NCBI RefSeq assembly: GCF_001874645.1
Contig: NZ_CP017886.1
Location: forward strand, 248,001 to 312,000
Direction of reading: 5' to 3'
DNA: 64,000 nt
Source: Pseudomonas frederiksbergensis
Lineage (GTDB): Bacteria > Pseudomonadota > Gammaproteobacteria > Pseudomonadales > Pseudomonadaceae
The notes beneath the pieces were generated by a model, which did not search any database, was not told where the DNA came from, and saw only the letters and a list, made by a program, of their open reading frames with translations. Of this stretch, positions 42,333 to 64,000 are shown piece after piece. Each line of letters opens with the position of its first letter. The first letter of the stretch is position 1. The translations under genes and the position numbers were made by a program.

Positions 42333-42713
42333 ATGGATCTCGCCACGCTCACACTATTCCTTCCCGCCTGTTTCGCCCTGAACATGGCGCCAGGCCCGAA
42401 CAATCTGCTGTCGGTCAGCAACTCGACCCGATACGGCTACCACGCGTCCTGTGTAGCCGGGCTCGGACGTTTGCTGGCGTTCGCCGGAATGATTGCGTTG
42501 GCCTCAGCCGGGCTGGCGGTGGTACTGCAAACCTCAGAACTGCTGTTTTACGGGATCAAGATTCTCGGTGCGGCGTATCTGTTCTACCTAGCGGTTCAAC
42601 TCTGGCGAGCCAATCCGCAGGCTGAAAGCGCAGTCGCCAGCGCGCCGATTGGCATCCTGGCGTTGGCCCGGCAAGAGTTTCTGGTGGCGGCAGGCAAGCC
42701 TAATGATGGGTAA
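42333..42713 (+). pseudogene. 5' part of an interrupted LysE-family exporter gene
   Basis: Codes MDLATLTLFLPACFALN, then MAPGPNNLLSVSNSTRYGYH, the LysE signature. It continues in family fashion to LARQEFLVAAG, after which bases 42698-42713 read into foreign sequence and stop. The family would continue NPKAILIFTAFLPQF, which is found at 45203. Joining 42333-42697 to 45205-45460 gives a 206-residue uninterrupted LysE protein. The 126-residue truncated product would lack helices 4-6 and is probably inactive. Confidence 0.9.
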
Positions 42714-42882
42714 TATAAAATTTCCGATGAGTTGCTATCGGCCGCGCCGGGGCTGCCCAAGCGCATCAAATGATGAGCTTGCATGATTTTACAATTTTAG
42801 TGCCCACCTAAATCCCAAAATTCAACGCCTTGATATCAACGTGCTACCTTAAAGCTCTTCTTAGTAAAATATTGAGGGATTT

Positions 42883-44040
42883 ATGGCTCATTGCATTTAC
42901 TGCCGTACGGACAAGGATGATTCAGAGTTCACCCTAGAGCACGTAATTCCACAGTTTTTAGGAGGTGCACATAGTCCCGATTTTTTGAAAACACGAGATG
43001 TGTGCAAAAATTGCAATAGCAACCTCGGCTTATTTGTAGATGCATCTTTTGAGAAGAACTGGGTCGTTTCCAATTGGCTCCGCGAGACATCTTCAGCACT
43101 CTATAACTCGGACAAGCCTGTTGGTGTGTCACTCATCTGCATGGGAAACAGTGACCTCTCCCCTCCAGAGCTTCCCGATGACCATGTCTGCGAACTGTGG
43201 CTAGGTCCACTTGGCGAACAAGTATTTTGGCTTCGTCCGCACGATGAAAGAATGTCCGCGTACGTTGGCGGAAATCCACGGACGATGAAGAGCGTTGAGA
43301 CACGAGCCTATTTCTTATTTTCAGAAAACTCGCATACAGATCCTCTCAAAACATGGCTGTCCTTTGAACAGGCATTCCAAGGGCGCAAGGTCAAAAAAAT
43401 CATGTGCACTGAGATCGATGGAGCTGATCCGGCTGACATAGGGTTCACGCAGGCTGATGAAATAGATCGATCACGTATTAAGTTTTTTCATGACAATAGT
43501 CATGGCACGTCAGAACGCAGCGTACAGGTTGTGGTGAACTCTCGGTTTGACCAACGATTCTTGTGCAAATTGGCAATAGGCGTCGCCTACTGCTTATTCG
43601 GGTCAAAGGTTCTAGATACCGATTATGGCAAGGAACTGCACAAAGGATTGTGGTATCGCGGAGACAATGAGGAACCGAATGTTCGTGGCACTGCACTGTT
43701 TTCCCATCCCAAAGATCGGGACATCAACAGCATCGTAGGCTTCCCTAATGCGGTAGCCATAGCGCTAATCTCTACTCCCGACGGCATAGCGATTAACCTT
43801 AACATCAGCTCGCAGCTGAATTGGACGATCCTGTGTGCGCCTATTGACACTCTTACGCATCAAGATCTTGCCAAAATTGGCGACGGTCAGATCATTGTGC
43901 TCGCACGCCCCCTCCAAACCGGTATCCACCTTGAACTCCCTGCATATCTGGCGCACTCGTTGGGGGCCACGCCACATCCCCAACTAAACGCGATCCAGGA
44001 ACGCGCAGAAAAAAACAAATCAGCCATTAGTCCGCCGTAA
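42883..44040 (+). CDS. HNH endonuclease-domain protein
   Basis: 385 aa. The N-terminal 50 residues form an HNH zinc-finger nuclease module: C4-x2-C7, E19-H20 in LEHVIP, and C41-x2-C44 followed by NSN. The remaining roughly 330 residues are a mixed alpha/beta region I cannot assign; they may bind the target or a partner. The gene is A+T-rich relative to its surroundings, suggesting transfer. TTGAGGG precedes the ATG. It is followed in the same insert and direction by a PLD-like gene. Confidence 0.8.
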   Translation: MAHCIYCRTDKDDSEFTLEHVIPQFLGGAHSPDFLKTRDVCKNCNSNLGLFVDASFEKNWVVSNWLRETSSALYNSDKPVGVSLICMGNSDLSPPELPDDHVCELWLGPLGEQVFWLRPHDERMSAYVGGNPRTMKSVETRAYFLFSENSHTDPLKTWLSFEQAFQGRKVKKIMCTEIDGADPADIGFTQADEIDRSRIKFFHDNSHGTSERSVQVVVNSRFDQRFLCKLAIGVAYCLFGSKVLDTDYGKELHKGLWYRGDNEEPNVRGTALFSHPKDRDINSIVGFPNAVAIALISTPDGIAINLNISSQLNWTILCAPIDTLTHQDLAKIGDGQIIVLARPLQTGIHLELPAYLAHSLGATPHPQLNAIQERAEKNKSAISPP

Positions 44041-44287
44041 TTTTTTCTCACCCCATAGATCCGGATCGATAACGCTCGTTTACCTGTAAGCGGTGTAGGT
44101 CCGACGCTCTGCAATGTGCACCTTGGAGTGTGAACTGAACCAGAAGATTGTCACCAGCAATCCTAACGATGCCCAAAATAAAATTTGGTCAGACAGCTTT
44201 GGGCCAGCTACGGTCATTCAGTGTTTACAGACTTCAGGGCGATTCAATGCTAGCTTTATGCCTTCTCTCTGAAAGGCCTAAGCCGCC

Positions 44288-45025
44288 ATGCCTATAGAAC
44301 CTGATCGCCTCTATCACGACCTCGGCTACCTTATTGCGGAAATGCCAGACATGGCCACCCATCAATGGCAGACCGCTGAAGGCCAGCGATGGCTAGGACG
44401 CGCCTCGGCTCTTCTTGAGCAAAGTGGCAGCATCATGGATGCGGCAACTTTCAACGCCGCTACAGAGCGTTTGAGTTCCAACGCCCTCATACCAGGCCAT
44501 CCTGAAGCCGTGCAACTAATGACAACTGTCCTTTATCGTGCCTTGGCCCGGGCAGAACTTCAGGCATCCCCTTCCACCCGCGGCGCCTTTATTCCTGTCG
44601 GAGAGACCTTCTCCGCGTTTACCGCCATATCGAAGATCCTGACCGAAGCCCGCAACACTGTGATGTTCGTCGACCCATATGCCGACGCCAACCTCCTGAC
44701 AGACTTCGCCGTCTTGGTACCCGAAGGTGTCACAATACTGATCTTGGCAGACACCAGCGGAAGGAAAGCAGCATTAGCTCCGGCGGTGAGACACTGGGCA
44801 CAGCAGTATTCGTCGGCACGCCCATTGGAAGCTAGACTTGCGCCAGATCGGTCGCTACATGATCGGCTGATCATCGTTGACGAGCTGGAGTCATGGAGCC
44901 TTGGACAATCCTTCAATGCACTAGCTGCACGTGCCCCTACCAGCCTAGTCCGTGCGGACTCCGAAACGGCCCAGCTTAAAATCCAGGCCCACAGCCTGAT
45001 CTGGCAGACAGCCGTTCCGATTTAG
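44288..45025 (+). CDS. PLD-like (HKD-motif) protein
   Basis: 245 aa. The C-terminal half resembles a single phospholipase-D-type domain: VMFVDPYADANLLTDFAVLV, then H191-x-R-x4-D198 in LHDRLIIVDE, then WSLGQSFN. The HKD lysine is replaced by Arg. The N-terminal 90 residues are helical and unassigned. One HKD copy implies a dimer if it is a nuclease, as in BfiI or Nuc. Paired with the HNH gene. Confidence 0.65.
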   Translation: MPIEPDRLYHDLGYLIAEMPDMATHQWQTAEGQRWLGRASALLEQSGSIMDAATFNAATERLSSNALIPGHPEAVQLMTTVLYRALARAELQASPSTRGAFIPVGETFSAFTAISKILTEARNTVMFVDPYADANLLTDFAVLVPEGVTILILADTSGRKAALAPAVRHWAQQYSSARPLEARLAPDRSLHDRLIIVDELESWSLGQSFNALAARAPTSLVRADSETAQLKIQAHSLIWQTAVPI

Positions 45026-45202
45026 TGAATTCGTTACGTAAGCACAAGGGGCCCGCGGCTTGGCTGATGTTGTCGAGTACCGCAGCCTAATACTGTCGCC
45101 GGACTCCTTTCTACCCATCACAACGGGCTGCTCTGAGTCGAACGCGGCGTCCCGCTCCGGCTCCGCCCGCCTAGCTGCTGTGAAATCAAGCTAGGCCCCA
45201 GT

Positions 45203-45460
45203 AACCCCAAAGCGATTTTGATTTTCACTGCATTCCTCCCGCAGTTCGTCGACCCGACGAAAGCCGTGACGCCGCAGTTCGCGGTACTGGGTGCGTTGTT
45301 TTTGTGTCTGGAATGGATCGCCATCAGTGCCTACGCCTACATGGGTTTGCACATGCGTCGCTGGTTTGCCGAGCCACGTGGCAAGCAGATTTTCAATCGT
45401 TGCTGCGCCGGGCTGTTGTCGGCAGCGGCGTCGATGTTGCTGATGGCCCGTCGTGCCTGA
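45203..45460 (+). pseudogene. 3' part of LysE-family exporter gene, copy A
   Basis: Codes NPKAILIFTAFLPQFVDP through to LLMARRA and stop. In frame with the 5' part at 42333-42697 if the insert is removed. It is repeated at 52946-53203 with about 15 differences in the last 246 bases (about 94% identity by eye). Confidence 0.9.
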
Positions 45461-45561
45461 CGCTTGGGCTTCAGGGTGCCATTTTTCTGGTCCCCCGTTG
45501 CCTTTTTGAAGTCCCCATTTTGCAGCGCACCGACCTTGCTCCAGCGCAAAGCTGATCGTTG

Positions 45562-46041
45562 CTAATGAACAACGACAACCAGCCCCTCCCCCTCACCCGG
45601 AATGCTGAAGTAGCGTGTGATCAGATCAAACTCGGCGTCCGTTGCTGCGAAATCATGTAAGCCCTCCGCGTTCCGTACGTGCAATCTGGCGCGGCAAGTC
45701 TCCTCGTCAACATCCAGATAGTGCAGACAATGCTGCGTCTGCGTTTGATCTGCCAAGGTGCGCAACCACTCGCGATCAGAGACGGTGTTTGCAGGAAAAT
45801 CCAGTACCACGCAAACACCTGCCGCAAGCAGGCTGACAACCAACGGCCCCAACACCCCACGAATGCGATGTGCACACCGCACATAATCGGTCACCGAGCG
45901 GATCTCTCCCGGATAAAGCATCGAAAGCCAATGGTCTTCGCTGAGTAGAATGGCAGCGTGGTTGTCGGCAAGCACTTTTGCCAATGTCGATTTACCAGAC
46001 GCGATTTTGCCGCACATCAAATGCAACGTAGGTGTCGTCAT
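45562..46041 (-). CDS. Small P-loop kinase (AAA_33/zeta-like fold)
   Basis: 159 aa. Walker A GKIASGKST at residues about 11-19, LLSEDHWL (conserved Asp), VVLDFPANT and a Walker-B-like hhhD. Resembles small nucleoside-kinase-like ATPases found as orphans in many genomes. It is shorter than zeta toxins and has no antitoxin gene beside it. Substrate unknown. Confidence 0.75.
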   Translation of the reverse strand: MTTPTLHLMCGKIASGKSTLAKVLADNHAAILLSEDHWLSMLYPGEIRSVTDYVRCAHRIRGVLGPLVVSLLAAGVCVVLDFPANTVSDREWLRTLADQTQTQHCLHYLDVDEETCRARLHVRNAEGLHDFAATDAEFDLITRYFSIPGEGEGLVVVVH

Positions 46042-46209
46042 GGGATACGTTCCTTCATATCGGACAACGGATAGTGCCCAATACTGGCTGCCGGCGCGAT
46101 AGCGCCGCAGCCCTTGTTAGCCATCAGATTACTTTGATCCGGTTTTATCCGGCGCCGTGGCGATGACACTGCCCGCAACACGCAGCAACCGCAACCAAGT
46201 CGTGCGTGA

Positions 46210-47094
46210 CTATTGTGTGTGGGTTGTGTGAGCTTCGAACGCGCAGACGATGCCATCAATCATTGCTGCGATGCGCGCGGTATGCCGAAGGTCTTGATGC
46301 GTGACAAGCCAGACTTCGTAGACCGCCCCACGTGCGGGTTCCGGCCATATCTGCACGAGGCCGTCGTGTTCAGCCAGATGTATCGGAAGCTCACCGATGC
46401 CGATACCGGCCTTTACCGCAGTACGCAGCATGAGGCTAGAGTTGAAGGTCGATACGATGCGCCCCGCGTGTATCGGTTCGCCAGCAAGCGTCGGTGATCG
46501 ATTGCTCGTCCAATTTCCCTGGTAGACGACAAGATCGTGGCCCGCGAATGCAGAGCCAACGGCGGGCTTGCCGTGTTGCTCGAGATAAGCATTCGATGCA
46601 AAGAGCGCCATGGGCCAGCGAGCCAGGCGCCGTGCGACAAGATCGGGATTATCCGGCCTGACTGACCGGACCGCGATGTCCGCTTCACGCTTTGCCAGAT
46701 TCAGCATGCGCGTCGAGGTGTCCAGCAGAACGCGCACTTCGGGATGCACGGCATGCAGGCGTTCGATGGCGGGAAGCAGGAATTCGAGCGCGATCGAGTC
46801 GGTGCTGGTGACTCTCACGTCCCCCGCAAGCCGTGTATCCGTGCCTTGAGTTCGTCTGACAAGTTCGTGTGCCGAGTGCTCCATTTTCTCCGCTGATCTC
46901 AGCGCGATCTCGCCTGCGGTGGTCAACGCGTAACCCTCAGAGGTGCGCAGAAAGAGCGTTGCACGTAGAGCGTGCTCCAGTGCTGCAATCCGTCTGCCGA
47001 CCGTCGCCTGATCGAGATTGAGCGCCCTGCCCGCTCCACGGAGCGTTTTTTCGCGCTCCACCGCTAGAAACACTCGCGCATCATCCCAATTCAT
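46210..47094 (-). CDS. LysR-family transcriptional regulator
   Basis: 294 aa. HTH: MNWDDARVFLAVEREKTL, then AGRALNLDQATVGRRIAALE. The effector domain starts LAGDVRVTSTDSIALEFLLP. Start at 47092-47094. Divergent from a quinone-oxidoreductase gene with a 152-bp intergenic region (47095-47246), so it likely controls that gene, as in other LysR/QOR pairs. The 168-bp gap on its other side (46042-46209) shows nothing. Confidence 0.87.
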   Translation of the reverse strand: MNWDDARVFLAVEREKTLRGAGRALNLDQATVGRRIAALEHALRATLFLRTSEGYALTTAGEIALRSAEKMEHSAHELVRRTQGTDTRLAGDVRVTSTDSIALEFLLPAIERLHAVHPEVRVLLDTSTRMLNLAKREADIAVRSVRPDNPDLVARRLARWPMALFASNAYLEQHGKPAVGSAFAGHDLVVYQGNWTSNRSPTLAGEPIHAGRIVSTFNSSLMLRTAVKAGIGIGELPIHLAEHDGLVQIWPEPARGAVYEVWLVTHQDLRHTARIAAMIDGIVCAFEAHTTHTQ

Positions 47095-47246
47095 CGTGCC
47101 CACTCCTGATGCAAATCTGCATCTCACCCTATGAATAATGCTGCACGTCAGCATCAGTGTCGATATCTATACTTCGCTGACTTGGGGGCCTCGCTCAATG
47201 ATCCGCCCGGATCAATCGAGCCTCATCTATTGAAGGAGTGGTAGCT

Positions 47247-48278
47247 ATGTCGGCTTCAACTTATCGCGTGCCGTCGTCCATGACGGCCATTGAAATTAAA
47301 CAGCCCGGCGGTCCTGAGGTCCTGGTGCCGACTACGCGCTCGGTGCCGACGCCAACCGCCGATCAGGTTCTGATCCGCATCCACGCGGCGGCCGTGAACG
47401 GCCCAGACGTTTTCCAGCGCAAAGGGCTGTACGATGCACCCGCTGGAGTTACGGACATTCCAGGGCTGGAAGTCGCAGGTCAGGTGGTCGCCATTGGCTC
47501 CGACGTGTCCAAATTCCGGATCGGCGAACGGGTGTGTGCATTGATTCCCGGCGGTGGCTACGCAGAATATGCAGTTGCGGACGCCTGCAACACGATGCAT
47601 ATCCCCAAAGGCCTGACGTTGGTGGAAGCGGCGGCCATGCCTGAAACGTTTATGACGGTGTGGCTGAACGTTTTCCAGCGCGGCAAGCTGGTTGCTGGTG
47701 AATCAGTGTTGATCCATGGCGGTGCGTCAGGTATCGGTACCACGGCGACCATGCTGGCGAAGGCATTCGGCGCTGCGAAGATCATCACGACCGTTGGCTC
47801 GCAGGCACATCGGAAGGCCAGCCTGGCGCTCGGCGCAGACCTCGCGATAGATTACCGCGAGGAAGATTTCGTCGCCGAAGCGAAGCGTTATACCGATGGA
47901 AAAGGTGTCGACGTGATCCTCGACATCATTGCCGGCGACTACGTGGCTAGAAACTATGCCGTAGCCGCCATGGATGGCCGGATCCTCCAGGTGGGCGTGA
48001 TCAAGGGGCCGGCGAAGGATCTCGACGTCGTGCCTATGATGATGAAACGTCTAACGCACATGGGCTCAACATTGCGATCGCGCACCTCCGCGGAAAAGGC
48101 GAGCATCATCAATGAACTCGAACAGCTGGTCTGGCCGCACATCGAGAGCGGCAAGATCAAGCCGGTTATCTACAAGACCTTTGCGCTTGCCGACGCTTGC
48201 GGCGCTCACGAGCTGATCGATTCCGGCACACACTTTGGAAAAATCGTCCTGACGACAGGTGCCGATCTCATTGGCTGA
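47247..48278 (+). CDS. Zinc-type alcohol dehydrogenase-family NAD(P)H:quinone oxidoreductase
   Basis: 343 aa MDR-superfamily oxidoreductase of the PIG3/QOR group. N-terminal GroES-like domain with AAAVNGPDVFQRKGLY and GLEVAGQVVAIG; Rossmann motif LIHGGASGIGTTATMLAKAFG. No structural-zinc Cys cluster. ATG 47247 has GGAG eight bases upstream. Its role may be quinone or enal detoxification; substrate not determinable. Confidence 0.88.
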   Translation: MSASTYRVPSSMTAIEIKQPGGPEVLVPTTRSVPTPTADQVLIRIHAAAVNGPDVFQRKGLYDAPAGVTDIPGLEVAGQVVAIGSDVSKFRIGERVCALIPGGGYAEYAVADACNTMHIPKGLTLVEAAAMPETFMTVWLNVFQRGKLVAGESVLIHGGASGIGTTATMLAKAFGAAKIITTVGSQAHRKASLALGADLAIDYREEDFVAEAKRYTDGKGVDVILDIIAGDYVARNYAVAAMDGRILQVGVIKGPAKDLDVVPMMMKRLTHMGSTLRSRTSAEKASIINELEQLVWPHIESGKIKPVIYKTFALADACGAHELIDSGTHFGKIVLTTGADLIG

Positions 48279-48501
48279 AGCCTGGCTTGCCGCTTTCGTT
48301 TTTGATGCTGTAAAGCAACGTATTTGTGTCGGCTTACATCAGCTACGCTTCCACATTGGGTATCAACTAGGCTGATGAGGGCGAGTGTCGCACGACTGAA
48401 ACCCAACCGGCTGGAATCCAGGTCGGCGACTGGAGAATATGAACGCAAAGCCAGTGTCGCTTGCCTATTGGGGAGGCGGATGAATGATAAAGGGGGGACA
48501 C

Positions 48502-49956
48502 ATGCCTGAATCCACTGCCCGCAAGCGCAACAAACCTGCTACGGAACCTACTGATCCGAAAACCCTGGCAGCACAAGAAGACCCGTCCACGCTGTTTGCG
48601 GGGCGTGCCTCTTTGGCGTCGCGCATCGGACAGGGCAAAGCGGCGCGCGCAAAGGTGCCGCGCGCGAAGCTGGCGGACTGCAAGATCGAAGATCGGGACC
48701 CCATTGCGCTGCTCGACGCGTCCAACGTGGGTCGGGTGACAGAGCTGATACCCATTCGCTACGGACGTATGGTTGCGAACCCATTCGCGTTCTATCGTGG
48801 TGCGGCTCCGCTGATGGCATTCGACCTGTCGAAACTGCCTCATTCCGGCCTGATCGTGCAACTGGGCGGCGATGCGCATCTGGCCAATTTCGGACTGTTC
48901 GCAAGCCCCGAGCGGCGCATTCTTTTCGGACCCAACGACTTCGACGAAACACTGCCCGGCCCCTTTGACTGGGATGTGCGCAGACTGGCTACATCGTTCG
49001 TGATTGCCGCGCGCGAACGCGGACTTGCGACGCGTGATCAGCGCGCCTTGGTGCGCCGGCTATGCGAGACGTTCCGGCAACAAGTCGCCGAGTTCAGCCG
49101 GATGGACACGCTCGACGTCTGGTACTACCAGTTCAAGGCGTCAAGCATGCTGGCCATTGCCGATTCGACGGAAGAAAAGAGAAAAGAACTGACCGTCATC
49201 GACAAGGCGAGGCAGCAGTCGTCGCGTTCCGTGACGGCTCATGCCACCGAGCTTGTCAACGGCAAGCTGCGCATCAAGGACATGCCGCCGCACGTTTATC
49301 ACGCCCCACTGGAGAGCCGGCACGATCAAAAGCAATACGATGCACTGGTCCGGCGTTTCTTCGCCGACTACCGTTTGACTCTGCCCGATGACAGGCGCGC
49401 ACTGTTCGATCGCTATGAACTGGTGGATGTCGCCATTCGCGTAGTGGGCGTTGGGTCGGTGGGGACGCGCTGCTACGAGGCGCTTTTCATGGCCGACGGA
49501 GAGTGCCCATTGTTCCTTCAACTCAAGGAGGCGCGGGCTTCTGTACTGGAGAGTTATCTGCCGCCGAGTCGTTATTCCAATCACGGTCAGCGTGTGGTGA
49601 ACGGGCAGCGTCTACTGCAATCGGCCAGCGACATTTTTCTCGGATGGTCGAAGATGCGTCATACGGGCAATGACTTCTACGTGCGGCAATTGCGCGACAT
49701 GAAGGGTGCGTTCGATTTCACCCGCTTCGACGTTAAAGATCTCGGCGAATATGCGGTTTCCTGCGCTCACGCGCTGGCCCATTCGATGGCGAAAGCGGGA
49801 GACCCTGCGTTGCTCAGCGGATACGTTGGAAAGTCGGATGCATTCGACAAGGCCATCGAGCGATTCGCACTCGCTTATGCGGATCAGAATGAGGCCGACT
49901 GGGCGGTTTTGAAAGCAGCAGTCAAGGCTGGACGCATCCAGGTGATTCGTGAATGA
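48502..49956 (+). CDS. DUF2252-family protein
   Basis: 484 aa. Family landmarks: YGRMVANPFAFYRGAA, QLGGDAHLANFGLFASPE, GPNDFDETLPGPFDWDVRRL, and YYRQL-type FYVRQLRDMKG. GDAHLANFG followed by FDWD resembles the catalytic-loop and metal-binding motifs of aminoglycoside-phosphotransferase-like kinases, so a small-molecule or protein kinase-like activity is possible (inference). ATG 48502 follows a GGGGGG site. The flanking gaps 48279-48501 and 49957-50203 hold no gene. Confidence 0.85.
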   Translation: MPESTARKRNKPATEPTDPKTLAAQEDPSTLFAGRASLASRIGQGKAARAKVPRAKLADCKIEDRDPIALLDASNVGRVTELIPIRYGRMVANPFAFYRGAAPLMAFDLSKLPHSGLIVQLGGDAHLANFGLFASPERRILFGPNDFDETLPGPFDWDVRRLATSFVIAARERGLATRDQRALVRRLCETFRQQVAEFSRMDTLDVWYYQFKASSMLAIADSTEEKRKELTVIDKARQQSSRSVTAHATELVNGKLRIKDMPPHVYHAPLESRHDQKQYDALVRRFFADYRLTLPDDRRALFDRYELVDVAIRVVGVGSVGTRCYEALFMADGECPLFLQLKEARASVLESYLPPSRYSNHGQRVVNGQRLLQSASDIFLGWSKMRHTGNDFYVRQLRDMKGAFDFTRFDVKDLGEYAVSCAHALAHSMAKAGDPALLSGYVGKSDAFDKAIERFALAYADQNEADWAVLKAAVKAGRIQVIRE

Positions 49957-50203
49957 GTGTGGAGCACCCTCATCGTTTTTTTTGCGCACTCGCAATGGCT
50001 GCTCGCCTGGCATCAACGGCAAAAAGAAATACCGGCGGCGCAGTGGGTGGCTTCTGATCCGGGCGTAGCTCTTCAACGGGCAATCGATACGTGCTACGGC
50101 ATCCTCTAATGTTGGTGCATGGAGCGAAACAGGACGGCACAGGCCGAGAAAAAACTTAACGTCGTGTCCGGGATTAGTTGACCACTACAACACAGCAAGG
50201 CCT

Positions 50204-52558
50204 CTATCGACGAAAACCACCACCGCCACGCTCGGTCTGGGTGTAGCGTCGGCTCTGGGCTGCACCTCGGTGTCGATTCTGCATGTCCTTATTCAACTCG
50301 CTCACAGGCACCTGTCCGCTGGGTCTGCTATAGCCGCCCGCAGTATTTTGTGGAGTGCCCCCACTTGGCCTGTTCGCAGTCGATGGCGCCGGACGCTGCT
50401 GTTGACTGCTCTGCGTTCTTTGCTGAGCGGTCGCAGAATTGTTGGCTTGAGTAGTAGTGGGGCGCGGTTGTTGAACACTCTGCGCTGTCGGTTGCGTACC
50501 CTTCGGCGTGGGTTTGTTGACCGATGACCAGGAGCCATTGTCGTATTTCTGCCAGCTACCATTGGTGTTCTTGTAAACACTGCCGTCACGCCCGGCGTAC
50601 ATATCGCCGTTCGCGGTTTTGCCCGCCGCCGCGCGCCCGTTGACGCTCGTACTGGTAATGGCCTTGCCGCCGGCCGAATTCTGATACGTACCGACCGTCC
50701 CGCTGGCCGTCGTCGTATGCTGCGTCGCCGCCCACTGGTTGCCCTTCGTGACGACAGAACTTCCCCACTGGCCGTACGCGTTCGAGCCTTGGCGTGTCGC
50801 CGCATAGGCACCGGTGTAGGGATTGTAGGCCTGCGCAATACCGGCGCTGCCGTACCGTCCGGAAGCAGCCGCGCCGCGTGCATAGGTACCAGTGTTCGGG
50901 TTGTACGAGGTGCCCCATTGCGCGCTGCCGTTCGGTCCGTAAGCGCCCCCTCTCACGCCGCTGGCTCCCGTGTAAGGGTTGTAGGTGCGATAGCCGTAGG
51001 GCACCGGACGTGGATAGTAAACCGGGTAACGTCCGGGTCCCCGAGCGATATAGGGCGGATAGTAATACCCGTTGCCGTTCGCAATGATCGCGCCGACCGC
51101 CGCACCGACGATAAACGCGCCGACATACCCCGCCGTGTAACTTGCCTGCACGCTGCCGCTGGGGGTGACCTGTTGCGTGACATAGGTCACGTTATAGACG
51201 GGCGAACTAGGCGGGATCGTATAGATAACCGGGGGCACAGACGTGGTGGTTTGCCAGGGGCCGGCGGGGGACGAAGCATCGAACCACACGCCTTTAGTGC
51301 AGACATAGTAACGATTGTCCACCTTGATCACTTTGTCAGGTGTGTTCGTTGCGTACGCGAGCGCAGTACCTTCAATCGGCTGGAACTCGGGTTCGCCGTT
51401 GTACGAAACCTTGACCTCGCTCGCCGCCGCAGCAGGATCCACCTCGACGGTTGTCGGGATCTGTGCGAGCAGAACAGCATCTGCGGCTTCCGGTGTCCCG
51501 GGTACGGAACTGAGGACCCAGGCGGCCGCGCTGTCGCGCGGAATCTTCGCGAAATCGGGCGGTAACTGATTCGTCGCGAACGTCCACGGTCCGCCCAGTG
51601 CGGGCGCAGAAAACCACCGGCCGCCAGTCAAATAGTAGAAAGTCTTGGTCGGTGAAAAGACGAATACATCACTCTCGGTATTCTTGGCGAAGACCAGCCC
51701 AGTGCCGGGAATCGGTGCGTAGACCGGCTGCCCGCCGAAGGCAATCAGCTCAGCCGGGGCACTGCTGAAGAACACCCCTGGCGCCTTGGTTTTTTGCGCT
51801 TTAGGTGGCGGAATGTAGGGTTTCAGGTCTGCCCAGGTGGGGTCGGAAGGAACCTTGGACATCGTGGCGGGCAGCACTTTCGTTTCTGCCCATCCGCTTT
51901 TCGGGTCGGTCGATGTCATCCATGACTGTCCGGTAAACAGGTAGTACTGGTGGCTGGCGTTGTCGGTAAACAGCGGCCAGTTGGCATTGACCACGAATGA
52001 AAGGTCTGAATCCTGAATCGGCGCGAGCGTCGGTTCGCCGTCCACAACCAGCAGGATCGCCGGCCCGTAACTCACGAAGATCGCCGGCGGATCGTTCTTG
52101 ACCTCGGCAACCGGAGGCGCTTTTTTGCTCTCCACGCTCGCGACCAGGCGGTCGACTGACAGGGTCAGCGAAGCCTGCGGATTGAGAAACTCGCGCACGA
52201 GTTGATCCAGCTTTTGGCTCGTTGCCTGGTCCGCACCGGGGAATGCGGTACTGACAATTTGCGGGTTGCTTAATAATGCGTTGCGACTGTCTATATCCAC
52301 ATCGGTATGCGTTTGCAGCGTGACCACGCCTACCTGTGGTTTGCCCCCGGGCGGGGTGATGTTTATCGCCATTCGACCGGTCAGTTGCTTGAAGTCCGTC
52401 CAGTCGTCGATCTGAGGCTGGTAATAGGTAAGGGTCGCGCCGTCCCGGACAACTTCACGCGGCCAACCGGGGTCCAGGGTCGCGGCGCGGATCGGCTGGA
52501 TGGCAGACAATGCCAATGCCAGCGTTAATGCTCGGATGGGCAGTCTTGACGCTGTCAT
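50204..52558 (-). CDS. Large secreted protein with repeats, function unknown
   Basis: 784 aa, signal peptide ending about IRA. The N-terminal 430 residues contain recurring modules of the type GEPTLAPI/GQPVYAPI/GEPEFQPI, each followed by an FxxNxxWP- or YYxxTG-like strand and a Trp-rich GPW (WFSAPALGGPW, WFDASSPAGPW), suggesting tandem beta-propeller or WW-like units. A glycine zipper-like hydrophobic stretch (GAFIVGAAVGAIIANG) follows. Then come three YNP(Y/N)TG repeats and a low-complexity Q/T/S tail ending GGGGFRR. Convergent with the DUF2252 gene. The 402-base gap upstream shows no gene. Confidence 0.7.
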   Translation of the reverse strand: MTASRLPIRALTLALALSAIQPIRAATLDPGWPREVVRDGATLTYYQPQIDDWTDFKQLTGRMAINITPPGGKPQVGVVTLQTHTDVDIDSRNALLSNPQIVSTAFPGADQATSQKLDQLVREFLNPQASLTLSVDRLVASVESKKAPPVAEVKNDPPAIFVSYGPAILLVVDGEPTLAPIQDSDLSFVVNANWPLFTDNASHQYYLFTGQSWMTSTDPKSGWAETKVLPATMSKVPSDPTWADLKPYIPPPKAQKTKAPGVFFSSAPAELIAFGGQPVYAPIPGTGLVFAKNTESDVFVFSPTKTFYYLTGGRWFSAPALGGPWTFATNQLPPDFAKIPRDSAAAWVLSSVPGTPEAADAVLLAQIPTTVEVDPAAAASEVKVSYNGEPEFQPIEGTALAYATNTPDKVIKVDNRYYVCTKGVWFDASSPAGPWQTTTSVPPVIYTIPPSSPVYNVTYVTQQVTPSGSVQASYTAGYVGAFIVGAAVGAIIANGNGYYYPPYIARGPGRYPVYYPRPVPYGYRTYNPYTGASGVRGGAYGPNGSAQWGTSYNPNTGTYARGAAASGRYGSAGIAQAYNPYTGAYAATRQGSNAYGQWGSSVVTKGNQWAATQHTTTASGTVGTYQNSAGGKAITSTSVNGRAAAGKTANGDMYAGRDGSVYKNTNGSWQKYDNGSWSSVNKPTPKGTQPTAQSVQQPRPTTTQANNSATAQQRTQSSQQQRPAPSTANRPSGGTPQNTAGGYSRPSGQVPVSELNKDMQNRHRGAAQSRRYTQTERGGGGFRR

Positions 52559-52945
52559 GCTTCGCTCCTGGCCTGCCTCAATGGCACTTCCGCTGCGCGG
52601 CCAGACCCATGGACGGAAGGCGATTTAGCAGACACTGGGTTGATCCTGATGGTCGGGTCACTATCGCCGTCAGGTATGCAGATCTATAAACATAGGTTGA
52701 CTACAGCGCGCCTGCAAGATATTGGGTAGTGATCGGAAATTGTGATCCGCGATAACCTCTTACCAGTGCAAGACTGTCGAGCAGCGGCTCGTAGCCGGAT
52801 GGCGAAGAACGATCAAGGTTTGACCAGAAAATGGTCCAGCAGCAGGTAGGTGTATGCCTGTATGTATGCCCATAACCTAGAAACGCTTGAATGAAACAAG
52901 GGGCTACAGGCAGCAATAGCGAGGCGATTCAGGATCGTTTCAAGG

Positions 52946-53203
52946 AACCGGAAAGCCATTTTGATTTTCACTGCGTTCCTCCCGCAGTTTGTCGACCCGA
53001 CGAAAGCCGTGACGCCGCAGTTCGCGGTACTGGGTGCGTTGTTTCTGGGTCTGGAATGGATCGCCATCAGTGCCTACGCCTATATGGGTTTGCACATGCG
53101 TCGCTGGTTTGCCGAGCCACGCGGCAAGCGAATTTTCAACCGTTGCTGCGCCGGTTTGTTGTCGGCAGCGGCGTCGGTGTTGCTGATGGCCCGCAGGGCC
53201 TGA
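52946..53203 (+). pseudogene. 3' part of LysE-family exporter gene, copy B
   Basis: Homology to copy A begins at the same codon (AAC of N-P-K, here N-R-K) and runs to the stop. The preceding bases are unrelated to lysE. It has no 5' part. Because the EamA gene follows at once, this may be the original lysE 3' end displaced by integration. Confidence 0.85.
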
Positions 53204-53236: not shown

Positions 53237-54277
53237 ATGAACCTGAGCATTTTCTACGCCTTGAGCGCGGCCGCACTGTTTGGCGCCAGCACCCCGCTGG
53301 CCAAACTGCTGGGCGTGGATGTCTCGCCAATTTTACTGGCGGGGTTGCTGTATCTGGGTAGCGGCATCGGCTTGACCCTGGTCCGGTTTATCCGCGACCG
53401 CGGCTGGCAGGCAACCGGTCTGACGGCCGGCGAGTGGCCGTGGCTGATTGGTGCCATCGCCTTCGGCGGGGTGCTTGGGCCTGTGGCATTGATGTTCGGT
53501 TTGACCCTGACTTCAGGGGCGGCGGCCTCGCTGATGCTCAATCTGGAATCGGTACTGACGGCGCTGCTGGCCTGGCTGGTGTTCAAGGAGAACGCTGATC
53601 GGCGAATCGTCGCGGGGATGTTGGCCATCGTCGCTGGCGGGGTGTTCCTTGCCTGGCCGCAAGACTCGACTCAGGCGCAAGGCTGGATCGGCCCGTTGGC
53701 CGTAGCGCTGGCGTGTGCCTGCTGGGCCATCGATAACAACCTGACCCGCAAGATCTCGGCGTCCGATGCCCTGTTCATTGCCGGTATCAAGGGGCTGGTC
53801 GCGGGGGCGGTCAACTGTACGCTGGCGCTATCGTTGGGGGCCAAACTACCGAACATTGCCACGCTCGCGCCGATACTCCTGGTCGGCTTTCTGGGTTACG
53901 GCATCAGCCTGGTGCTGTTCGTACTCGCTCTTCGCGGCCTGGGCACGGCGCGCACCGGCGCATACTTTTCGACCGCGCCGTTTCTGGGGGCGGCGATTGC
54001 GATTCTGATCCTCGGCGAACCGGCTTCATTGACGTTCTGGATCGCTGCCCTGCTGATGGGCATTGGCGTCTGGATTCACCTCACTGAAAGCCATGCGCAC
54101 GAACACCAGCACGAGCCGCTGATCCATGGTCACCGGCATGTTCACGATGAACACCATCAGCATGAGCACGACGTTGAATGGGATGGCAGCGAACCCCACA
54201 GCCACGTTCACCAGCATCTGGCGATCCGGCACAGCCATCCGCACTTCCCGGACATTCATCACCGGCACAAGCATTGA
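53237..54277 (+). CDS. EamA-family transporter with histidine-rich tail
   Basis: 346 aa. Ten-helix DMT permease: two EamA repeats (SAAALFGASTPLAKLLGVD, and IDNNLTRKISASDALFI), ending about residue 285. The last 60 residues are a cytoplasmic tail with over twenty His in HEHQHE, HGHRHVH, HHQHEH and HHRHKH clusters, a likely Ni/Co/Zn-binding segment. ATG 53237 has only a weak upstream AAGG. A chromate transporter gene follows after 38 bp, suggesting a metal-related unit. Confidence 0.88.
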   Translation: MNLSIFYALSAAALFGASTPLAKLLGVDVSPILLAGLLYLGSGIGLTLVRFIRDRGWQATGLTAGEWPWLIGAIAFGGVLGPVALMFGLTLTSGAAASLMLNLESVLTALLAWLVFKENADRRIVAGMLAIVAGGVFLAWPQDSTQAQGWIGPLAVALACACWAIDNNLTRKISASDALFIAGIKGLVAGAVNCTLALSLGAKLPNIATLAPILLVGFLGYGISLVLFVLALRGLGTARTGAYFSTAPFLGAAIAILILGEPASLTFWIAALLMGIGVWIHLTESHAHEHQHEPLIHGHRHVHDEHHQHEHDVEWDGSEPHSHVHQHLAIRHSHPHFPDIHHRHKH

Positions 54278-59884: not shown

Positions 59885-61286
59885 GATTCAACGCATCCGT
59901 GCCGAGGTTCTGGAAAGCCGAAAAAGGAATCGGCTCGATGGGAAAACGCGGTCGCAACCAACCGACATCCTGGCGGCCGGTGGCTTCACGCAAGCGGTCG
60001 CTGCAATAACCGACACACATCCGCCCCTGACAATCGCCCATGCTCACCCGCGTGCGCATTTTCAGGCTGGCCATGTCTTGAACGCCTTGGGACAGCGCCC
60101 GATCGATATCGGCGCGGGTGGCGTTTTCGCAGCGGCAGATCACCGTATCGGCAGCCGGCAACGCCGTCTGCCCGGCACCGCGTTCGGTGTAGCGATCCAC
60201 CGCCGCGCGAAAGCGCACGATGGACTTGAGCTTCGCCAGATAGCGCTCACGCAATGGCAGCGCCTGTTCGGTGCTCAGCACATCACGCTGCACAAGGATC
60301 GACAACGCAGCGATTCGACCGCTGAACATCGCTGCTTCGCCGCCGCGAATCCCGCCCATGTCACCGGCCAGGTGAACGTGCGGTTCGCTGCTTTGCTGCC
60401 AGATATTGGCCGTGGCGCGCAGATAACCATCATCACTGAAGCCATGCTCCAGCCCCATTTGCTGACTGAGCTGAGTACGCGGAATGAAGCCATAGCCCAC
60501 CGCCAGGGTCTGCGCCGCAACCTGCTCGGCGCGACTCAGGTCTGGCTGCCAGCTGCTGGAATACGGTGCGACCGTCACGTTGCGTAATTCGCCCTCGCCT
60601 TGTGCCTCGACCACACCCCAACCGTAACGCATCGGGATCCGGTGCAATTTCAGGTACGCGAGCATGCTCAGCCCGTCGAGGAACAGTTGCGGTTTGTTCA
60701 GCAGTGCCAGGCTTTCCTTGGCGATCTTGCCGAACGCGCTGGCTTCGAACACTCCGGCAACCTTCACCCCGGATGCGTGCAATTGACAGGCGACCAGCGG
60801 TAACAGCGGACCGGTACCGGCGATCACCACCGGGCTTTGCGGCTTGACCACGCCACTCTTGATCTGCAACTGCAAACCACCCAGCAATATCACGCCCGGC
60901 AAGGTCCAGCCGGGGAACGGTACGCTGCGCTCATGGCATCCGGCAGCGAGCAACAATTGCGGATAGGTGATTTCCTGCACGCGTTCGCCTGCGTCCAGCA
61001 TGACCAACGCCCGAGTCCCTTCTGCACCGACGACCCGAGTGTTCAAACACACGTCGATCAGTGCACAACGGTCCTGAAAATCGCCATGCAGCCTGGCCAG
61101 AACCTCGGCGTAACGCGGCCCCAGATAGTCCAGGTGCACACCGTCGCGCAACGGCCCGCGATACACCACACCGCCCAGTCGGGAAGCTTCTTCAAGTAAC
61201 GTGCAGTGCACGCCGTGTTCGGCCAGTTCAATGGCCGCCGCCATACCCGCCGGGCCACCACCGACGATTACCGGATGCAGGCTCAT
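59877..61286 (-). CDS. hcnB: Hydrogen cyanide synthase subunit HcnB
   Basis: 469 aa FAD/NAD-fold subunit. Dinucleotide motif VGGGPAGMAAAIELAEHG at the N terminus, a second GTGPLLPLVACQL, and a C-terminal Cys-rich BFD-like segment (ICRCENATRADID, then GRMCVGYC) able to hold an Fe-S cluster. Overlaps hcnA by 4 bp and hcnC by 8 bp. Confidence 0.95.
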   Translation of the reverse strand: MSLHPVIVGGGPAGMAAAIELAEHGVHCTLLEEASRLGGVVYRGPLRDGVHLDYLGPRYAEVLARLHGDFQDRCALIDVCLNTRVVGAEGTRALVMLDAGERVQEITYPQLLLAAGCHERSVPFPGWTLPGVILLGGLQLQIKSGVVKPQSPVVIAGTGPLLPLVACQLHASGVKVAGVFEASAFGKIAKESLALLNKPQLFLDGLSMLAYLKLHRIPMRYGWGVVEAQGEGELRNVTVAPYSSSWQPDLSRAEQVAAQTLAVGYGFIPRTQLSQQMGLEHGFSDDGYLRATANIWQQSSEPHVHLAGDMGGIRGGEAAMFSGRIAALSILVQRDVLSTEQALPLRERYLAKLKSIVRFRAAVDRYTERGAGQTALPAADTVICRCENATRADIDRALSQGVQDMASLKMRTRVSMGDCQGRMCVGYCSDRLREATGRQDVGWLRPRFPIEPIPFSAFQNLGTDALNHE

Positions 61287-61597
61287 AGGGCCTCCTGCTC
61301 GGCAATACGGTTGACCACCGTTTCAACCTGCATACCTGGCTGCACCAGCGTCTGGCAGGCGCGGCGCTTGTGTCGGCCGTTGATTTTCACCAGGCAGCAT
61401 TGGCACACGCCCATGCCGCAATAGGCCCCGCTGATCTGATCGTGATCATTGCGTGCGACCTGGCGCACGCCGAGGGATTGAATGACCGTCAGCACAGTTT
61501 CGCCAATCGCGGCGCTGACCCGCTGGCCATTGAGTTCGATGGTCATGTCCGCCCGCACAAGCGGCTGGATGTCAAAGGTACGGTCTAGGCGTTGCAT
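61283..61597 (-). CDS. hcnA: Hydrogen cyanide synthase subunit HcnA
   Basis: 104 aa [2Fe-2S] ferredoxin-like subunit: CGMGVCQCCLVK (C-x4-C-x2-C) with the fourth Cys in RRACQT. Start MQRLDRTFDIQPL at 61595-61597 is chosen because the ATG four codons upstream lies inside the RsmA/RsmE hairpin sequence. That upstream ATG cannot be ruled out. First gene of hcnABC. Confidence 0.92.
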   Translation of the reverse strand: MQRLDRTFDIQPLVRADMTIELNGQRVSAAIGETVLTVIQSLGVRQVARNDHDQISGAYCGMGVCQCCLVKINGRHKRRACQTLVQPGMQVETVVNRIAEQEAL

Positions 61598-61604
61598 GGC
61601 ATGT

Positions 61605-61616
61605 TTCATCCGTGAA
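61605..61616 (-). promoter_or_regulatory. RsmA/RsmE-binding hairpin in the hcnA leader
   Basis: Minus strand reads TTCACGGATGAA: a 4-bp stem with GGA in the loop, overlapping the ribosome-binding region. The same 12-mer core was used in the published RsmE-hcnA RNA structure from P. protegens. It implies Gac/Rsm post-transcriptional control of cyanide production. Confidence 0.9.
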
Positions 61617-61747
61617 AAGTCATTGAGGGTTGGCAGCATCATGCTGCGGTCGTGCAACGACGTAACATCGCTGCGCCAAGGCAATGTCGCTGAGGGTGCT
61701 ACAAGGCCCTGGATCTTTTACGTTACGTGATAGGCCAAAGCGAAACA

Positions 61748-61761
61748 TTGATCCAGGCCAG
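61748..61761 (-). promoter_or_regulatory. Possible ANR/FNR site upstream of hcnA
   Basis: Minus strand CTGGC-N4-ATCAA: one half matches the ANR consensus TTGAT-N4-ATCAA, the other is poor. A -10-like TAACGT at 61720-61725 would put the site centre near -41.5. hcn operons are known to be induced by ANR at low oxygen. Confidence 0.5.
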
Positions 61762-61844
61762 TGAACTGCACCCCGCGGTCCATCTGACACGCCCATGAAA
61801 AAAACCGCATCTATTGACGCTGATGCCGGTGTCGCGCAACTCCC

Positions 61845-61974
61845 GTAGCAGCTGCCGAAGGCTGCGTTCGGCTGCGAAGCAGTCGTGAAATCAGGCACTG
61901 CGGTTTATCAGGTGAACCGTGGACACAGGTTTACGACCGCTGCGCGGCCGAACGCAGCCTTCGGCAGCTGCTAC
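61845..61974. repeat. Long inverted repeat with 28-bp perfect arms
   Basis: Arms 61845-61872 and 61947-61974 (GTAGCAGCTGCCGAAGGCTG...) are exact inverse complements around a 74-base centre. This is a sequence variant of the REP family (GTAGCAGCTGC instead of GTAGGAGCTGC) between hcnA and the response-regulator gene. Confidence 0.8.
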
Positions 61975-62130
61975 AGAATGCGCGGTGTCTGAAGGTTTGC
62001 TGGCTCCAGCGAAGTCGCTAACGCCTTGTCTGAAGGCGGTCTACCCTATATGAAAGTTTTTTTAGAACCCTCGCCGGCATTTCTTGGCACACTGCCGCCC
62101 GTGTACTTCATTCACTCTCAGGCAAGCCCC

Positions 62131-62814
62131 ATGACCCGAATCCTGACCATTGAAGACGACGCTGTCACCGCACAGGAGATCGTTGCCGAGCTGAGCAGCC
62201 ATGGCTTGCAGGTGGACTGGGTCGCCAATGGTCGAGAAGGTCTGGCGCGGGCGGTCAGCGGTGACTACGACCTGATCACCCTGGACCGCATGCTGCCGGA
62301 GCTCGATGGCCTGGCGATTGTCACCACCTTGCGAACCATGGGCGTGTCGACGCCGATTCTGATGATCAGCGCCCTGTCCGACGTCGATGAGCGGGTTCGC
62401 GGCCTGCGCGCCGGCGGCGACGATTACCTGACCAAACCCTTTGCCACCGACGAAATGGCCGCCCGGGTCGAAGTCCTGTTGCGACGCCAGAACACCGTCA
62501 AGGACTACACCACGACGCTGCGCGTGGCCGACCTTGAGCTCAACCTGATCAGCCGCGAAGCCAGCCGCGCCGGACAGTTGCTGAGCCTGCTGCCGACCGA
62601 ATACAAACTGCTGGAGTTTTTGTTGCGCAATACCGGGCAGATCCTCTCGCGGATGATGATTTTCGAAGAAGTCTGGGGCTATCACTTCGACCCGGGCACC
62701 AACCTGATCGATGTGCACATCGGACGTCTGCGCAAAAAGATCGACCCACCGGGCCAACTGCCGCTCATACGGACTGTGCGAGGCTCGGGTTATGTCATTG
62801 CTGAACCCGTCTAA
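62131..62814 (+). CDS. OmpR-family response regulator
   Basis: 227 aa. Receiver domain: acidic pair in TIEDDAV, phospho-acceptor Asp in LITLDRMLPELDG, Thr/Ser in MISALSDVDE, Lys in YLTKPF. C-terminal winged helix with LLPTEYKLLEFLLRNTGQIL and VHIGRLRKKID. ATG 62131; an upstream frame exists but adds no domain. Overlaps the sensor kinase gene by 23 bp. Signal unknown. Confidence 0.93.
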   Translation: MTRILTIEDDAVTAQEIVAELSSHGLQVDWVANGREGLARAVSGDYDLITLDRMLPELDGLAIVTTLRTMGVSTPILMISALSDVDERVRGLRAGGDDYLTKPFATDEMAARVEVLLRRQNTVKDYTTTLRVADLELNLISREASRAGQLLSLLPTEYKLLEFLLRNTGQILSRMMIFEEVWGYHFDPGTNLIDVHIGRLRKKIDPPGQLPLIRTVRGSGYVIAEPV

Positions 62815-64000
62815 AGGCTGGCGCTCCTCCAGCAGCCGCTTGCTGGCGCTCTACAGTTCGCTGTTCGTGGTCTGGAGCGGCCTGCTCATGGGGGTGATGT
62901 ATTACGAGGTTTCCAGCTACCTGGAGAACCTTGCCAAACATTCACTGATGCAACGCCAGCACCTGTTTTCACGCTTCCACGGCGAGCAACTGGATGAGGC
63001 GCTGATCGCCAGCATCACCTTCGATCAACGTGGCATCGACGCCTACGGGCTATTCGACGAGCGGCTCCGGCCCCTGCACGGGCTGATCCGCAAGATCCCC
63101 GCCGGTCTGCCGCTGGACGGCAAGATCCATGAACTGCACGACTGCGCCGACCCGGATGACGCCAGCATGCCGTCCGACAGCTGCGACGCCGTGGCGACTC
63201 ACACCCTGGATAACCGCTGGCTGGTGCTGGTGCGTGACAACGGTTCGTTGTTCGCTGTCACGCGGATCATCCTGTATGCCCTGTTCTGGGGCGTCTCGCT
63301 GACCATCATCCCCGGCATCGCCGGTTGGCACTTGTTGCGCCGTCGGCCGCTGCGGCGTATTCGCGCCCTGCAAGCGAGCGCCGAAGCCATCGTCGCCGGC
63401 AACCTGAACCACCGCTTGCCGCTGTCCAGCCGCCGCGATGAGTTGGACATGCTCGCCGCCATCGTCAACGCCATGCTCGAACGCATCGAGCGTTTGGTGA
63501 ACGAGGTCAAAGGGGTTTGCGACAACATTGCCCATGACCTGCGCACCCCGCTCACCCGGCTACGCGCGCAGCTTTACCGCATTCAACAACAGGCCGCCGA
63601 AGGTTCTGCCGAGGCGTTGCAGCTGGATCAGGTGATCGCCGAAACCGACACCCTGATGGCGCGTTTTCGCGGGTTGCTGCGGATTTCCGAGCTAGAGGAT
63701 CAACAACGGCGTTCGGGCTTTGTGCTATTCGATCCGTTGCCGTTGCTGCAAGAACTGCACGATTTTTACCTGCCGCTGGCCGAAGAAGGTCAGCTGACAT
63801 TAAGCCTGCAAACGCCACACACCCTGCCTGCGCTGACCGGCGACCGGGCGTTGTTGTTTGAAGCCCTGTCGAACTTGCTGAGCAACTCGATCAAGTTCAC
63901 CCCGGCGGGCGGTCAGGTCATCGTGCGGGCGAGCAACAACGCCGGCAGCACACGCATTGAAGTCCTCGACTCCGGACCCGGCATCCCGGCGGACAAACGC
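62792..64000 (+). CDS. Sensor histidine kinase, partial
   Basis: 403 codons, open at the right edge. N-terminal helix LLALYSSLFVVWSGLLMGVM, a periplasmic domain of about 120 residues with two Cys, a second helix (ALFWGVSLTIIPGIAGW), a HAMP linker, H-box NIAHDLRTPLTRLR, N-box EALSNLLSNSIKFTP and the start of the G1 box (VLDSGPGIPADK). The ATG lies within the regulator gene. The Asp/Cys-containing sensor loop gives no clear ligand. Confidence 0.92.
   Translation, partial: MSLLNPSKGWRSSSSRLLALYSSLFVVWSGLLMGVMYYEVSSYLENLAKHSLMQRQHLFSRFHGEQLDEALIASITFDQRGIDAYGLFDERLRPLHGLIRKIPAGLPLDGKIHELHDCADPDDASMPSDSCDAVATHTLDNRWLVLVRDNGSLFAVTRIILYALFWGVSLTIIPGIAGWHLLRRRPLRRIRALQASAEAIVAGNLNHRLPLSSRRDELDMLAAIVNAMLERIERLVNEVKGVCDNIAHDLRTPLTRLRAQLYRIQQQAAEGSAEALQLDQVIAETDTLMARFRGLLRISELEDQQRRSGFVLFDPLPLLQELHDFYLPLAEEGQLTLSLQTPHTLPALTGDRALLFEALSNLLSNSIKFTPAGGQVIVRASNNAGSTRIEVLDSGPGIPADKR

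Follow-up and report, generated by a model that had tools for sequence, protein, structure and literature searches.

The window analysed here, 64,000 nucleotides of Pseudomonas frederiksbergensis (contig NZ_CP017886.1, positions 248,001 to 312,000), contains a transporter gene, lysE, that is interrupted at codons 121-122 and followed by two copies of its 3' end. An earlier note on this DNA had proposed this lysE codon as the attachment site of a family of cargo islands, and our genome comparisons indicate that codons 121-122 are a recurrent docking site (attB) for a family of cargo-bearing elements. Insert 1, located between the lysE 5' part and the first 3' copy, is by its sequence a set of two cargo cassettes (HNH and PLD), each starting with a phage P' arm and ending with a B-type arm. 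This two-unit row probably stands in the attB of serine-recombinase prophages and may have been left there by excision at an inner joint.

In at least 10 of 398 sampled Pseudomonas genomes, the window's own included, the break in lysE falls at one and the same base and leads into a shared end of about 20 bp; this count is a lower bound. A search with the left-joint pattern matched 121 of the 398 genomes, mostly by chance, as the reversed control gave similar counts. Twenty sites were picked by eye among the matches listed: 9 of them are junctions with lysE, 5 are further P' or P'-like sites and 6 are neither. Six of the nine further lysE junctions are supported by tblastn, one (G186) by blastn and two (G129 and G044) by reading. 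Nine of ten lysE-bearing viral contigs break at codons 119-124 (seven matches start at 119-121, two end at 124). The proposed attachment site is thus borne out, and inserts at this codon are present in other strains, with same-codon breaks in nine further genomes. The lysE 3' part resumes at the same codon after 3.4 kb in G277, 4.2 kb in G304 and about 15 kb in G331, and a complete lysE lies 8 kb downstream of the break in G017 and G322, the 5' counterpart of the window's doubled 3' end.

For comparison, 80 intact lysE loci were used, a set biased to intact genes because the best 80 of 534 relatives were kept. All 80 carry AAYCCN at the site, and AAG, with the base of the P' arm, is present in 8 of 11 left joints. 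Self-comparison of these loci revealed extra lysE remnants in L086, L089, L095 and L129, two of which stop at lysE nucleotide 368, the window's breakpoint, and continue into the window's sequence (L129 is among the same-base breaks). Short lysE 3' remnants with other start points are located 1-4 kb past the intact gene in L089 (11779-11865) and L095 (13983-14028); in L089 a deaminase-like open reading frame (ORF), recognised by eye, lies between gene and remnant. The 3' side of lysE may be a hotspot via a second route. In L336-L339 the P' arm abuts lysE 3' and not lysE 5', with TT on that strand; these are possibly phages with the opposite core orientation. The P' arm found in L246 (G247) meets lysE near codon 95 rather than 121, in a similar GGCGGGC-AA context.

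Sequence evidence from viral contigs and one complete prophage indicates that Pseudomonas prophages integrate at the lysE codon via a large serine recombinase. A 550-597-residue protein is encoded directly at the lysE joint in L331, L332 and L334; Resolvase matches above the cut-off in all three, Recombinase and zinc ribbon below theirs, and the L331 protein corresponds to a PHROG integrase. In L343 the attP is found unintegrated (P arm - AA - P' arm) next to the gene for the recombinase, and the sequence on its P' side continues like the chromosomal left ends. On this comparison the conserved left end is the phage P' arm. The P and P' arms of attP match each other in dyad symmetry, and the halves are exchanged in attL and attR of G334. 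This genome holds a whole insertion of about 42 kb: the lysE 5' part (C7:20894) is followed by a cassette of 1 kb, an RE1-AA-P' joint (21895; RE, right end), phage genes for terminase, portal, baseplate, tail and repressor, the recombinase at 61243-62865 (78% identical), and the P arm and lysE 3' near 62900. The recombinase envisaged next to lysE 3' in larger versions of the islands is therefore seen in prophage loci (L331, L332, L334, G334). Nine viral loci carry the enzyme; three abut lysE, one has the intact attP, two (55% identical) have other flanks and three are without that flank. A search of 25 genomes, 20 with P' sites and 5 with intact lysE, gave 6 matches, full-length only in G334 and G186. 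According to the available text of PMC9144972, the large serine recombinase of Burkholderia phage JC1 integrates in rimO. It is 56.6% identical to that of L331, and JC1 likewise has attP directly upstream of the recombinase gene and inserts within a protein gene; unlike the lysE phages it targets rimO, and rows of cargo units are not mentioned in that text.

The left end of the elements consists of AA and the P' arm, with the consensus GCCTAACGATGGGCAATATAAA (30 sites). The P' pattern is enriched, with 38 sites in 31 of the 398 genomes versus 3 for the reversed pattern; several of the 13 regions fetched for it are apparent chance matches in genes (L240, L243, L247-L249). In the window the left-end motif occurs twice, and not at all in 100 shuffles. 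The right ends form two groups, RE1 with 14 sequences and RE2 with 9. The set of RE1-AA-P' joints numbers eleven, including that between the window cassettes E1 and E2, one at C1:466 kb of the same genome (L005/L043), those of L179, L181, L237, L241, L242 and L132, and one in viral contig L200; L333 contains three more. The RE arm of the E1/E2 joint is the weakest of the set (20.1 bits), and scores on training sites are not independent, since the bit-score matrices were trained on picked sites.

To assign the RE arms, matrices built from lysE and phage arms were compared with 2000 shuffles. RE1 arms are B-type (z 2.8 and 3.3; 5 and 2 of 2000 shuffles reach the score) and not P-type (z 0.7 and 0.7). 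RE2 arms, a set that includes the window's copy B junction, are also B-type (z 4.3 and 3.9, 0 of 2000 shuffles; P-type z 0.5 and 1.6). On the same scale, P versus P' gives z of about 6, B versus B' 2.3-2.4 and P' versus B 1.7. With B-type RE arms, RE-AA-P' is composed like an attL and RE-AA-B' like an attB; the row of insert 1 ends in RE1-AA-B', the latter form. We infer that AA is the central dinucleotide (Table 1). A 6-bp spacer, AANCCN, was considered and replaced by an AA core plus arm bases. Conservation of a peptide rather than a DNA site was rejected, as the three copies in the window's genome vary at all codon positions (by eye).

No P' or RE site above the training minimum of about 20 bits was present at the integrase loci L282-L298. 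The RE-P' joint matched 15 plasmid records, all only in the stretch read as the end of an insertion sequence (IS). Ends of IS30-like or other IS, or of miniature inverted-repeat transposable elements (MITEs), were noted by eye within a CTGCTTTCGGCC palindrome beside P' or RE arms in L005/L043, L177, L178, L189 and L237, where the IS/MITE end adjoins a transposase-like ORF. The joint near 466 kb (G000:C1, L043), the third RE1-P' joint of this genome, neighbours another HNH gene, several insertion sequences and Hcp/VgrG-like genes, and rulA/rulB-like (UmuD/UmuC-like) genes or fragments recur near sites in L179, L194, L189, L333 and L338 (both by eye).

Rows of P'-cargo-RE units are found in L179, L181, L237 and L333, with up to four units; L333 has four P' sites, the first at lysE 5'. 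Units with both ends defined measure 1001-1976 bp outside the window (window units, Table 1). An 88-bp unit in viral contig L200 (6711-6799) has P' and RE arms and no cargo, and no match to it was found in phage records. The HNH protein of E1 is 69% identical to a protein beside the lysE 3' junction in viral contig L336 and has no PADLOC match; E1 relatives are rare and occur in 6 of 298 genomes, 4 of them matching over most of the length, the window's own included. The E2 PLD protein has no Pfam match of its own. Its homologues are named phosphatidylserine/cardiolipin synthase family, some with PF13091; it has a good match only in its own genome among the 298, one other being weak, and 346 relatives in a large protein set. 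HNH and PLD proteins match 4 and 2 plasmid records, all below 60% identity. Twenty proteins beside P' arms were scanned, some of them in units without both ends known: 9 match PADLOC at E <= 1e-10, 1 more was recognised by a short motif and 10 are without a match. Several units carry genes resembling defence genes, and the E2 gene resembles a candidate anti-virus gene.

The order B-P'[cassette]RE-P'[phage]P-B' in G334 suggests how such rows may form. The phage would carry P'-cargo-RE beside its attP. Excision from the outer attL would remove the cassette together with the phage. If attR recombined with the inner RE-AA-P' joint instead, the product would be B-P'[cassette]RE-B', which is how insert 1 is built, except that it has two units. 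The remaining RE-AA-B' would be a regenerated attB for the next phage, and repeated inner-joint excisions would therefore make cassette rows grow. Serine recombinases require a directionality factor for attL x attR recombination. Read directly from the sequence are the common point of breakage in lysE, the P' arm of an attP that is not integrated, the G334 prophage with its cassette, the B-type RE scores and the rows elsewhere.

Several points weigh against this scheme. Deposition was not observed, and there is no pair of strains with and without the phage. A close recombinase located at lysE is confined to G334 among the 20 genomes that have P' sites; that of G186 is 60% identical and located elsewhere, and a genome search found no such recombinase in the window's own genome. 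Some P' sites are located away from lysE, and a 220-residue Phage_integrase protein is encoded 2 kb from one of these (L239, G175). The RE1 arm test is moderate (z 2.8 and 3.3), and P' arms themselves reach z 1.7 against B; the B and B' matrices were taken from fixed slices, at least 1 of 80 being shifted. Insert 2, between the two lysE 3' copies, is outside the unit scheme.

P. fluorescens HK44 (L069) represents the empty site, with an intact lysE directly followed by EamA and flanks that match on both sides. The window's lysE 5' part aligns with the intact lysE of relatives as far as the codon at which copies A and B begin. The two copies form a direct repeat (45200-45460 and 52943-53203) of 261 nucleotides with 93% identity and a spacing of 7743, and a genome-wide search found no third lysE 3' copy. 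Counted from the AAC codon, 18 of 258 bases are different between A and B, and 15 of these fall in the last 246, which confirms the earlier count. That both copies begin at the same codon also stands, but the NPK motif ascribed to both copies does not, since copy B reads AAC CGG AAA (N-R-K), and insert 1, described as one insert, has its own junction at 44159.

Together, copy B and EamA match HK44 at 94% without interruption, which makes B the native end. Eight sites are informative, A and B differing there and likewise HK44 and 48H11; at 6 of them A equals 48H11 and B equals HK44, 1 is reversed, and at 1 A equals HK44 and B neither. By these alleles copy A is of foreign (48H11-like) origin, from another lineage, and B is native (HK44-like), in line with the origins first suggested for them. 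The accompanying idea, that the elements bring a replacement 3' end, fared less well: lysE stays truncated with insert 1 in place, the prophages split the gene and do not restore it, and neither a P' arm nor a recombinase is present in insert 2. A replacement mechanism is unproven and is not what insert 1 elements do.

Insert 2 (7.5 kb) also contains no RE1 match, and its genes are ordinary-looking. Its LysR-oxidoreductase block is 91% identical to DNA of G129, where the remainder does not align. At its right joint an RE2-like arm lies just before the AA of copy B, with 5 mismatches, against 4 at a chance site elsewhere in the window. Positions 50135-50192 (about 55 bp) hold a stretch that is found with 92-100% identity in many Pseudomonas genomes and is by its spread similar to repetitive extragenic palindromic sequences. 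It is an even bet that insert 2 and the doubled 3' end arose when DNA from a different strain recombined homologously within lysE, its other edge being joined elsewhere and no mobile element taking part in that step. Copy A would then be the donor 3' end and the 7.5 kb the donor's downstream DNA. This agrees with the different lineages of the A and B alleles, with the ordinary genes and missing P' arm of insert 2, and with L089 and L095, where an intact lysE is also followed by a shorter 3' remnant; against it stand the break of copy B at this very codon and the RE2-like arm immediately ahead of it. As a guess, an RE2-ending cassette stood before B, and foreign DNA (lysE, cassettes, A and downstream genes) recombined in.

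Table 1 Features of the lysE locus in the window and cargo found beside P' arms in other genomes and contigs.
Feature	Position or locus	Strand	Evidence
lysE 5' part, truncated at codon 121-122 (ATG at 42333)	42333..42697	+	PF01810 match; alignment with intact lysE to breakpoint
attL: lysE B arm - AA (42696-42697) - phage P' arm	42675..42720	+	same junction in 9 further genomes of 398 and viral contigs L333, L335
Cassette E1 (P' arm ... RE arm), 1462 bp	42698..44158	+	ends aligned to other units
HNH_5 endonuclease-like gene, 385 aa	42883..44040	+	PF14279 1.2e-16
E1/E2 joint: RE arm - AA (44159-44160) - P' arm	44137..44181	+	P' pattern with 2 mismatches
Cassette E2 (P' arm ... RE1 arm), 1042 bp	44161..45202	+	ends aligned to other units
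PLD-like protein, 245 aa, candidate defence family PDC-S05	44288..45025	+	PADLOC PDC-S05 1.7e-13
RE1 arm - AA (45203-45204) - lysE B' arm of A, attB-like make-up	45183..45226	+	RE1 pattern, 1 mismatch (other window matches: 6); arm type test
lysE 3' copy A, foreign allele	45203..45460	+	repeat and allele comparison
Insert 2	45461..52945	.	ORF list and profile matches; P'/RE1 matches absent inside
Insert 2: AAA_33 kinase	45562-46041	-	profile match
Insert 2: LysR	46210-47154	-	profile match
Insert 2: zinc-type dehydrogenase/quinone-oxidoreductase-like	47238-48278	+	profile match
Insert 2: DUF2252	48484-49956	+	profile match
Insert 2: 784-aa protein	50204-52558	-	ORF list
RE2-like arm - AA (52946-52947) - lysE B' arm of B	52928..52970	+	RE2 pattern, 5 mismatches exactly at junction
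lysE 3' copy B, native end	52946..53203	+	continuous with EamA as in HK44
EamA transporter, right flank of site	53237..54277	+	PF00892; 99% aa identity in HK44
Cargo: CAP12/Pycsar-type TIR protein (PDC-S35)	G334		
Cargo: Ptu/Toprim-type ATPase	G304		
Cargo: trypsin-like protein; 1355-aa protein with sub-threshold NACHT match	G017		
Cargo: SEC-C and SLFN AlbA_2 proteins	G079		
Cargo: AriA/AriB-like proteins	L333		
Cargo: viperin-like protein	G297		

For insert 1 it is rather unlikely that E1 and E2 are simply the P'-end genes of phages that resided successively in lysE, the rest having been deleted with no site-specific deposition. In L336, a phage-like contig in lysE, a relative of the HNH gene adjoins the P' end, and the absence of the recombinase from the window's genome would fit such decay. 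However, RE arms recur exactly at AA in tandem joints of different genomes (the 11 joints and the 3 more); the right ends are non-random, and deletion would therefore not yield them.

Integron-like cassettes, or GInt-, SE- or Tn554-like ones moved by a tyrosine recombinase, are very improbable, even though the cassette sizes, the Phage_integrase protein near the P' site in L239 and the variable crossover bases, as for SEs in the available text of PMC10214605, are in their favour. Among the matches listed for eight site-bearing genomes there is no PF00589 within 6 kb of known P' sites, and a serine recombinase is found at the lysE joint and beside attP. Among the ORFs listed for the inserts viewed, with a motif pattern run as well, no recombinase was found. 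Folding of five joints as attC sites gave z of -0.88, -2.17, 0.12, 0.45 and 0.64, one of five below -2, and no consistent fold; both candidates were rejected. Tandem duplication of lysE followed by insertions, which would explain two 3' ends at one locus, is hardly credible, as HK44 and other relatives have a single intact lysE beside EamA, the A and B alleles differ and other genomes break at the same codon.

Integron cassettes resemble the lysE units in forming rows of short, mostly single-gene units with a fixed direction and precise joints. They differ in their folded attC sites, whereas the lysE units have linear double-arm sites, extend from a P' arm to a B-type arm and go with a recombinase that is of the serine class and phage-borne. 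The staphylococcal cassette chromosomes (SCC, SCCmec) share serine recombinases, one target gene, tandem insertions and some units without a recombinase; the lysE units differ in their length of about 1-2 kb and in their link to prophages.

SEs, GInts and rulB integron-like elements also insert site-specifically inside Pseudomonas genes with variable crossover bases but, as far as the available text of the reports goes, encode two or three tyrosine recombinases (PMC10214605, PMC5385486, PMC4542609), none of which are among the matches listed near known P' sites in eight genomes. Phage and satellite defence hotspots similarly have defence genes as phage cargo, and units left via a second attL are not mentioned in the available text of PMC9122126. 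A literature search that covered few subscription papers found no report of lysE as a serine-recombinase site or of P'-cargo-RE units.

The cassette reading accounts for a locus that resembles mere gene decay. Whether it extends to a phage-run cassette system, in which cargo, often defence-like, is left with a fresh docking site and successive phages build and can re-collect an integron-like row, we regard as evenly poised. Sequence defines the docking site, the enzyme, the limits of the units and what they carry, and the boundary rule (P' arm ... B-type arm) could be used to find more short defence-like genes. If true, the scheme would offer an uncomplicated account, open to testing, of how defence islands in chromosomes are seeded by prophages, and a possible serine-recombinase counterpart of integron rows.

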